From Halorubellus sp. JP-L1 (GTDB lineage: Archaea > Halobacteriota > Halobacteria > Halobacteriales > Natrialbaceae), in NCBI RefSeq assembly GCF_011440375.1, contig NZ_JAAOIR010000002.1:496001-560000 (forward strand): a stretch of DNA of 64,000 nucleotides, given 5' to 3'. Shown here in pieces: positions 58,511-60,824 of this stretch. The notes under the pieces are model-generated. The model did no database searches. It was not told where the DNA came from and saw only the letters and a program-made list of their open reading frames with translations. The translations under genes were made by a program, and so were the position numbers. Position 1 is the first letter of the stretch; every line of letters starts with the position of its first letter.

Positions 58511-59206
58511 ATGAGTAAGATAACCGTCCGCGCGGACGACGACCTGGTCGCGCAACTGGAGGCCCTGGAGGCGTCCAAGAGCCAGGTGGTTCGCGAGGCG
58601 CTCCGGGCGTACCTCGACGACGGGTCGAGGGCGTCGGGTCGCCTGACGGACGGGGAGGTCATCGAGGACGCAGACGGTGGTGCTGTCGCGGGCGACGACG
58701 GGACGCTCGACGCGCTCGTTCGCGAGCGCGTGGACGAGATCGTTGCCGAGCGCGTCGACGCGGCGCTGTCGGCGCGCGGCGTCGGGCGGCGGGCGTCGCC
58801 GCAGGACGTCAACGTCACCATCGCGGTCGAGGGTGCGGTGTCAGACATCGAGTCGTCCACGGGTGGCGTGGACGCCTCGGGAACGAACGGCGAGGAGTCG
58901 ACTGCGGCGTCGGACGGTGACGGGTCGACTGCTGCGTCGGACGCGGACGAGTCGGCGCCGTCGGACGTGGACGAGGAAGACGTGTCGGACGCCTCGCGCG
59001 CGCCGGAGTCGGCTGGCGAGGCGTCGTCGTCGTGCGCGCAGTGCGGCGAGGCGCTCGATTCGGAGCACGTGTACTGCCCGAACTGCGGGGAGAAGACGTC
59101 CCGTCGGGCGTTCTGCGAGTGCGGGGACGAGCTGCGATCGGACTGGGCGTTCTGTCCGGGCTGTGGTCGTCGGACGCCCGCCGCCGACGTCCTCGAACCG
59201 GAGTAA
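58511..59206 (+). CDS. cdrL: ribbon-helix-helix regulator with double zinc ribbon, CdrL-type
   Basis: This 231-residue protein has an N-terminal ribbon-helix-helix domain (about 1-45; SKITVRADDDLVAQLEALE and SQVVREALRAYLDDG), a long acidic Ser/Asp linker (about 105-175) and a double zinc ribbon at the end (CAQCGEALDS, CPNCGEK, CECGDEL, CPGCGRR). It lies just upstream of cdrS-ftsZ2, the layout known in Halobacterium and Haloferax, where the long (CdrL) and short (CdrS) RHH proteins control cell division. A direct role on the palindrome before cdrS is likely. The zinc ribbons may mediate protein contacts. Confidence 0.9.
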   Translation: MSKITVRADDDLVAQLEALEASKSQVVREALRAYLDDGSRASGRLTDGEVIEDADGGAVAGDDGTLDALVRERVDEIVAERVDAALSARGVGRRASPQDVNVTIAVEGAVSDIESSTGGVDASGTNGEESTAASDGDGSTAASDADESAPSDVDEEDVSDASRAPESAGEASSSCAQCGEALDSEHVYCPNCGEKTSRRAFCECGDELRSDWAFCPGCGRRTPAADVLEPE

Positions 59207-59271: not shown

Positions 59272-59438
59272 GTAGTTTTATTACGTATGACACTGTGATT
59301 ACAGTCGCGTAAGACGGTCGTCTTACAGGCTCCCTCAGGTGGTGCGTATCGGGCCGCCCTCACGGGGTTTCGCCGTGTAAGACAAAGTGCGTGGGACTCT
59401 CACGCGTGCCGTCTTACCCAAAGGGGAAACTACGAACC
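59272..59438 (+). promoter_or_regulatory. cdrS-ftsZ2 promoter, operator and structured leader
   Basis: TATA TTTTATTA (59276-59283) predicts a start near 59306. A perfect palindrome of 8-base arms, GTAAGACGGTCGTCTTAC (59309-59326), sits right there, and ACTGTGATTACAGT (59292-59305) is a second inverted repeat beside it. Further half-sites GTAAGAC (59377-59383) and GTCTTAC (59411-59417) flank two hairpins (CACGG/CCGTG 59361-59377; GCGTG/CACGC 59389-59405). The leader is about 130 bases, unusually long. Likely site of RHH autoregulation. Confidence 0.7.
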
Positions 59439-59612
59439 ATGGAGCGTGTGACACTGCGCATTCCGAAACAGCAGATCGATGAGGTCGAACAGATGGTGGA
59501 GACGGGAGAGTTCCCGAATCGCTCGGAAGCGATCCGCTCCGCCGTGCGCGAGATGCTCAACGAACAGAGCGATCGCGCGGACAAGAACAACCGCAGCTGG
59601 GCGAAGGTGTAG
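59439..59612 (+). CDS. cdrS: short ribbon-helix-helix cell-division regulator, CdrS-type
   Basis: This 57-residue RHH protein has the beta-strand [19 protein letters not shown] and helices [17 protein letters not shown]. In Halobacterium salinarum the small RHH protein CdrS, encoded directly upstream of ftsZ2, activates ftsZ2 and other division genes. ATG 59439 is chosen because the upstream in-frame extension has no RHH similarity and includes the regulatory half-site. Only 3 bases separate its stop from the ftsZ2 start, so they are one transcript. Confidence 0.93.
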
Positions 59613-59615
59613 ACG

Positions 59616-60824
59616 ATGCAGGATATAGTTCAGGACGCCCTCGAGAACGAGGAAGAGGAGAAGAAGAAACAGCAGGACATCGATGGCGGCGACTTCGGTG
59701 ACCCGCGCATCGTGATCGTCGGCGCAGGTGGCGCCGGCAACAACACCGTCAACCGGCTGTACAACATCGGCGTCGAAGGCGCCGAGACGATCGCGATCAA
59801 CACGGACAAACAGCACCTGAAGATGATCGAGGCCGACACCAAGATCCTCGTGGGGAAGTCCCTCACGAACGGACTCGGTGCCGGTGGCGATCCGTCGATG
59901 GGCGAGCGCGCCACGGAGATGGCCCAGGGCACGATCAAGGAGGTCCTCGGCGAAGCCGACCTCGTGTTCGTGACCGCTGGCATGGGTGGCGGGACCGGCA
60001 CCGGCGCCGCGCCCGTCGTCTCCAAGATCGCCAAAGAGCAGGGTGCGATCGTCGTCGGGATGGTCTCGACGCCGTTCAACGTGGAGCGCGCGCGGACGGT
60101 GAAGGCCGAGGAAGGCCTGGAGAAGCTCCGCGAGGAAGCGGACTCCATCATCGTCCTCGACAACAATCGACTGCTGGATTACGTCCCCAACCTCCCGATC
60201 GGGAAGGCGTTCTCCGTGATGGACCAGATCATCGCGGAGACCGTCAAGGGGATCTCGGAGACGATCACGCAGCCGTCGCTTATCAACCTGGACTACGCGG
60301 ACATGACGAGCATCATGAACCAGGGCGGTGTGGCCGTGATGCTGGTCGGCGAGACCCAGGACAAGAACAAGACGCGCGAGGTGGTGAACGACGCGATGAA
60401 CCATCCGCTGTTGGACGTGGACTACCGTGGTGCATCCGGTGGTCTCGTTCACATCACTGGTGGACCGGACCTCACTCTCAAAGAGGCGGAGGGCATCGCG
60501 GACAACATCACCGAACGCTTGGAGGCGAGCGCGAACGTCATCTGGGGCGCGCGCATCCAGGAGAACTACAAGGGCAAGGTCCGCGTCATGGCGATCATGA
60601 CGGGCGTGCAGTCCGCGCAAGTGCTCGGACCGAGTACGCAGAAGCAAGCGGACAAGTCCCGGCAGGCTATCGACGGCGTGGATGGCGTCGGTGGCGGCCA
60701 GGAGCCCGAGTTCGACGCGAGCCAGAACGTCTCCGGCGAGGGGTCGTTCGGTCAGTCTGGCGCGCAGAGCGACGGCGGGCGGAGCGAGGTCGAGCAGAAC
60801 AACGGCCTGGACGTCATCCGCTGA
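59616..60824 (+). CDS. ftsZ2: cell-division GTPase FtsZ2
   Basis: This 402-residue tubulin-family GTPase of the FtsZ2 type drives division-ring constriction in haloarchaea. The N-terminus ([15 protein letters not shown]) is typical of haloarchaeal FtsZ2. The GTP-binding tubulin signature is GGGTGTG near 123-129, the T7 loop is NLDYADM, and [12 protein letters not shown] is also conserved. An acidic, Ser/Gln/Asn-rich C-terminal tail (about 350-402) probably binds partners. Co-transcribed with cdrS. Confidence 0.96.

Follow-up and report, generated by a model that had tools for sequence, protein, structure and literature searches.

A palindrome at the start of the haloarchaeal cdrS-ftsZ2 transcript, probably shared by a structured mRNA leader and a ribbon-helix-helix operator

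The cdrS-ftsZ2 division operon of haloarchaea begins with a palindrome that is present, with few exceptions, once per genome, and in which two elements, a structured mRNA leader and an old ribbon-helix-helix (RHH) operator, probably overlap. Its conservation would have two reasons: its halves help the start of the mRNA to adopt a three-armed fold, and the same bases are probably also recognised by a DNA-binding regulator. The timing of division in archaea is poorly known, and the CdrS/FtsZ2 operon has received the most study. The target sequence of the RHH protein CdrL is undefined in the literature that we found, and the palindrome supplies a concrete, testable sequence.

The palindrome, its promoter and its conservation

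In the window (the whole stretch of 64,000 nucleotides of Halorubellus sp. JP-L1 that was analysed; all features given here are on its plus strand), the palindrome GTAAGACGGTCGTCTTAC occupies positions 59309-59326. It is composed of two 8-bp arms, arm 1 (GTAAGACG, 59309-59316) and arm 1' (CGTCTTAC, 59319-59326), separated by a 2-nt centre. Because the central GT is not self-complementary, 16 of the 18 positions are symmetric, and the original prediction of a perfect 18-base palindrome was right about the palindrome and slightly overstated its perfection. Upstream lies cdrL (58511-59206; 231 aa, with RHH_1, CdrL_M and a double zinc ribbon in Pfam), and downstream lie cdrS (59439-59612; 57 aa, a ribbon-helix-helix protein, RHH_1 in Pfam) and ftsZ2 (59616-60824, named by Pfam). 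Pfam thus confirms the identities of the two RHH proteins that had been placed on either side of the palindrome.

The promoter of cdrS-ftsZ2 has its TATA box, TTTTATTA, at 59276-59283. In 139 non-redundant loci aligned on the palindrome, the distance between this box and the palindrome is fixed, without insertions or deletions, and a pyrimidine-purine step is conserved two bases 5' of GTAAGAC. From the TATA spacing and this step, the transcription start (+1) is predicted at G59307, and the first base of the palindrome falls about 3 nt past it, as the proposal of a palindrome at the expected start had held. The published Haloferax transcripts of about 250 and 1,500 nt have sizes compatible with a leader of ~100 nt (PMC8406309).

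A second inverted repeat, ACTGT-GATT-ACAGT, is present at 59292-59305, where it had been pointed out as a neighbour of the palindrome. Its symmetry is lost in relatives (ACAGTGCATACAGT in locus L092), and it was rejected as an operator for this reason. The same place in the window and its relatives holds a TGTG..TAC-like conserved stretch, spanning -14 to -6 relative to the palindrome and lying between the TATA box and the start, with T at -13 in 86%; it is possibly a proximal promoter element.

GTAAGAC occurs four times in the 64-kb window, all within one 109-bp stretch that contains the palindrome and two further copies, GTAAGAC at 59377-59383 and GTCTTAC at 59411-59417. Across the 3.76-Mb genome to which the window belongs, GTAAGACN4GTCTTAC, with up to two mismatches allowed, has a single occurrence. 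The search of other haloarchaeal cdrS promoters for GTAAGAC repeats that had been suggested was run here, and a genome scan found GTAAGAC-N2-6-GTCTTAC in 286 of 292 genomes of the class, in single copy in 285 and in two copies in one (G240, the sole scanned genome with two palindromes); the reversed control pattern was almost absent from the same scan. The palindrome is therefore conserved before cdrS, and a lack of such conservation had been named beforehand as grounds for giving up the idea. All 67 complete genomes of the window's own family have one palindrome each. Among 80 haloarchaeal cdrS loci retrieved via the CdrS protein, and hence independently of the palindrome, 79 contain it, 86-135 nt 5' of the ATG, the exception (L063) having an altered second arm. 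About 130 palindromes were examined in context and all were located before cdrS; with one copy per genome, a regulon defined by the palindrome is ruled out.

In four of the exceptions within the class, the palindrome changes but arm 1 (intact or with one base substituted) and the pre-ATG copy persist: arm 1' is altered in L212, L214 and L216, and arm 1 in L217. L218 is without the pre-ATG copy. The spacer of the palindrome is 4 nt (11 bp from start to start) in 167 of 206 loci, and the others have 9-13 bp, that is, a spacer range of 2-6 nt.

A three-way junction in the mRNA leader

The cdrS-ftsZ2 mRNA very probably carries a class-wide structured leader, as judged from folding and covariance models. 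The element, a predicted three-way junction, extends over 59307-59438, and our covariance model R1 matches 59307-59428 with 100 bits, once in the window's own genome. Within the first ~110 nt of the mRNA, helix P1 would join arm 1 to the copy that precedes the start codon, helix P2 would join arm 1' to the middle copy, and a hairpin (P3) would occupy the gap. The 5' strand of P1 (59309-59318) pairs with 59408-59417, arm 2' (GCCGTCTTAC), in which the 7-mer is GTCTTAC in 202 of 206 loci and GTCTTGC in four. In P2, the 5' strand (59320-59330) consists of arm 1' and an extension that is paired in the centroid fold and whose pairs covary, and the 3' strand (59372-59383) is arm 2. P3 (59389-59405) lies between arm 2 and arm 2', and all five of its modelled pairs vary on both sides across species. 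The copies beginning at 59377 and 59411, which had been read as operator half-sites, are thus really there, within arms 2 and 2', but turn out to be the sequences with which the palindrome arms pair in the mRNA leader.

Folding of leaders from 28 species gave a near-uniform shape, with P1 formed by arm 1 and the pre-ATG copy, P2 formed by arm 1' and the middle copy and lengthened by variable pairs, and P3 between them. In minimum-energy folds of 68 leaders that are <80% alike and were ended just past P1, P1 is formed in 68 and P1 together with P2 in 64. Their median z is -4.6 against dinucleotide shuffles, controls that ignore relatedness among leaders, and a separate test on a longer stretch gave -2.9 for the window leader; the energies were computed for 1 M salt and 37 C, which differ from the conditions in haloarchaeal cytosol.

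Position tests were anchored by sequence alone, to avoid alignment to structure. Pairing in P1 at positions 8, 9 and 10 (94%, 79% and 72%, respectively) and in the P2 extension at positions 2-5 (p<=0.012) was above that of shuffles, and slid-partner controls mostly lacked a pairing excess in this test. RNAalifold, applied to a MAFFT alignment, chose P1 unprompted. The covariation score of the three-way junction was 0.144 in alignment A1, compared with 0.088 after shuffling, and counts for the named structures favoured the junction over a form with two hairpins. Alignment A3, which comprises 99 model-aligned leaders and leans towards the structure, gave 0.206 (0.092 shuffled, at most 0.088 slid), with 88.6% of cells paired (at most 49% slid). 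The secondary structure of the leader is thus backed by covariation.

A simpler fold would be a 5'-terminal hairpin of arm 1 with arm 1', acting as a stabiliser of the mRNA 5' end or as a pause, with arms 2 and 2' forming a separate hairpin. The two palindrome arms are almost always complementary, and the predicted folds of a few lineages (L282, L283, L217, L149 and L218) do contain the 1:1' hairpin, in some cases together with 2:2', in place of the junction. However, the 1:1' hairpin is in the minimum-energy fold of none of the 68 leaders, and forcing it costs a median of 5 kcal/mol relative to the junction (3.2 for the window leader); when the leader is folded in full, up to the ATG, six of 68 favour the hairpin form. 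Position 8 of arm 1 covaries with arm 2' and not with arm 1': its Watson-Crick partner is in 2' alone in 17 diverse leaders and in 1' alone in one. In the sequence-anchored test the 2:2' extension had no consistent pairing excess, one isolated position aside. The energies and the covariation of position 8 rule out the 1:1' hairpin as the main fold, and we consider this explanation of the palindrome very improbable. Also unlikely is a bistable leader, in which the four copies would pair either as the 1:1' and 2:2' hairpins or as the three-way junction, and a Cdr-family RHH protein bound to the DNA or to RNA helices P1/P2 would set the state, tying ftsZ2 expression to its own level once transcription has begun; the DNA operator and the RNA fold would then share one sequence.

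Under strict filters, model R1 matched in 40 of 43 genomes of the class, always at cdrS; 204 genomes from the rest of the phylum gave no match. The leader had no Rfam match at E<=5, and its structure is without description in Rfam or in the open-access portion of the literature that we searched. P1 lies ~2 nt from the 5' end on one side and ~20 nt from the AUG on the other, and the most plausible function of a helix in this position would be to set how stable the division operon mRNA is, how well it is translated, or both.

The same letters as a DNA operator

We consider it probable that a DNA operator overlaps the structured leader. Read as DNA, the arms would form two 7-bp half-sites 11 bp apart, with a geometry like that at ftsZ1 and sepF promoters and in the cdrS arrays of non-halophilic relatives. 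The palindrome has the 11-bp start-to-start spacing of a CdrS-type RHH operator (11 in the window as well). Its half-sites are GTAAGAC and GTCTTAC and not GTCNGAC, the sequence that CdrS appears to read, from which each differs by one base; we therefore speak of CdrS-like geometry and do not class the palindrome as a CdrS site.

The cdrS promoters of 20 genomes outside the class have no palindrome but contain GTCNGAC arrays, with 43 occurrences in 3,400 bp of cdrS promoters against three in 23,807 bp elsewhere, and with spacings of 11, 22 and 33 bp. These loci (L219-L238) belong to methanogen relatives, and their 11-bp-phased arrays include six near-copies in a row in L231. On sequence grounds, the arrays are probably the ancestral autoregulatory operator of CdrS. 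The most likely origin of the palindrome would be such an ancestral array, with half-sites that changed to GTAAGAC and GTCTTAC in haloarchaea.

Of 139 loci, 106 also have an exact half-site in the untranscribed DNA 5' of the TATA box; in control windows the figure is 12 of 695. This half-site takes one of two forms, GTCTTAC (usually at -52) or GTAAGAC (usually at -65), and in most genomes would be an activating or cooperating site. In most cases only one of the two is present, and a second upstream palindrome made of both was rejected. The window's own genus is without the upstream half-site (two to three mismatches).

It is possible, though clearly less probable than the shared use proposed here, that the arms owe their conservation to their part in the leader junction alone, the dyad being a relic of the ancestral operator that no protein reads as DNA today. 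The strong covariation of P1, P2 and P3, the variable spacer of the palindrome (2-6), its persistence without CdrL and the silence of CdrS ChIP at the cdrS promoter (PMC8406309) all agree with such a relic. Against it, arms 1 and 1' stay mutually complementary and invariant, although the junction requires just 1:2' and 1':2; the upstream half-site, which is not transcribed, is kept in most genomes; and the cdrS promoter was matched in CdrL ChIP (PMC7439475). Furthermore, the palindrome is kept in L149 and a near-palindrome in L218 without the P1 partner, and the RNA junction is therefore not the sole reason for conservation.

CdrL is encoded directly upstream in 204 of 209 loci, and its SKITFRAD strand is almost invariant. 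ChIP-seq of CdrL in Halobacterium salinarum found the cdrS-ftsZ2 promoter as the only reproducible target, and CdrL is stated in that study to be present in all sequenced Halobacteria (PMC7439475). This universality is contradicted by five loci without cdrL (L207, L173, L181, L182 and L175), observed in genomes of four genera (G093, G183, G138, G281 and G002). In these five genomes CdrL was absent both beside cdrS and genome-wide in a single-sequence protein search followed by a profile search, for which sister genomes, as positive controls, score 1e-76 or better, and tRNA-Tyr is now nearer to cdrS. All five retain the palindrome and the fold, and CdrL therefore cannot be the sole reason for conservation, a possibility that is ruled out by these losses.

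They also bear on a reading by DNA alone, in which four half-sites would make up a CdrL operator set that blocks initiation, and the RNA pairing would be incidental to inverted repeats in the DNA. The single CdrL ChIP site (PMC7439475), the position of cdrL directly upstream in most loci and its near-invariant strand, and the single genomic copy of the palindrome would fit it. Yet the pairing reaches past the repeats and covaries at positions of P2 and P3 that no operator needs, the middle copy drifts by G-U wobbles, so that the DNA half-site is gone in many genomes while RNA pairing is retained, and cdrL has disappeared from five genomes with no decay of the palindrome. We regard this reading as highly unlikely. 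The original proposal of an RHH operator set at cdrS thus survives in part: conservation, genomic uniqueness, position at the start, RHH geometry and the promoter's place as CdrL target (PMC7439475) agree with it, whereas the role of the downstream copies as RNA partners, the dispensability of CdrL for conservation and a CdrS ChIP target list from which the cdrS promoter is absent (PMC8406309) do not.

For the combined leader and operator that we prefer, an RHH protein at +3 to +20 (CdrL where present; otherwise CdrS or another RHH protein) would hinder initiation or promoter escape. Several observations speak against this combined reading: a spacer of 2-6 nt is unusual for a rigid RHH operator, the cdrS promoter is missing from the Haloferax CdrS targets, the loss of CdrL without decay of the palindrome makes the DNA binder uncertain, the window's own genus has no upstream half-site, and some lineages are predicted to fold as hairpins and not as the junction.

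Comparison with known systems and other division promoters

The CdrSL network of Halobacterium salinarum has the same genes in the same order, with CdrL binding to the cdrS-ftsZ2 promoter (PMC7439475). The main text of that paper is without a motif or leader structure, whereas the present analysis gives both a conserved sequence and an RNA fold. In Halobacterium, the mRNA level and ribosome occupancy of cdrS-ftsZ2 are mismatched (PMC8303175); a post-transcriptional role of the leader fits this mismatch, without proving it, and the structured leader is a candidate explanation for it.

The cdrS leader resembles the cis-regulatory leaders and riboswitches of Rfam in having a conserved multi-helix junction directly before the regulated gene and a closing stem near the 5' end. 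It differs from them in matching no Rfam family at E<=5 and in the unusual use of one invariant sequence by both P1 and P2. In RHH operators of the Arc/MetJ/CopG type, short half-sites in inverted or direct orientation follow one another at about one helical turn, and autoregulation is typical. The half-sites of the palindrome are also short and about one helical turn apart; unlike in those operators, the sequence at cdrS is transcribed as well and supplies strands of RNA helices, and its spacer is variable in some lineages.

For CdrS of Haloferax volcanii, a symmetric motif was obtained from 18 ChIP sites, ftsZ1 included (PMC8406309). The sites at ftsZ1, like the palindrome, are two 7-mers 11 bp apart, and their letters probably match the published motif; the half-sites of the palindrome differ by one base each, and the cdrS promoter is outside the list of CdrS targets (PMC8406309). 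In Haloferax relatives, GTCNGAC-N4-GTCNGAC is found at the ftsZ1 promoters, and one such site also precedes a sepF-like gene, named from its sequence, in Halogeometricum. In L245, L247-L250 and L274, this site or a one-base variant of it is found just 5' of ftsZ1 promoters and before the sepF-like gene. These sites are candidate CdrS operators, of which three to five exact copies per genome are present in four genomes.
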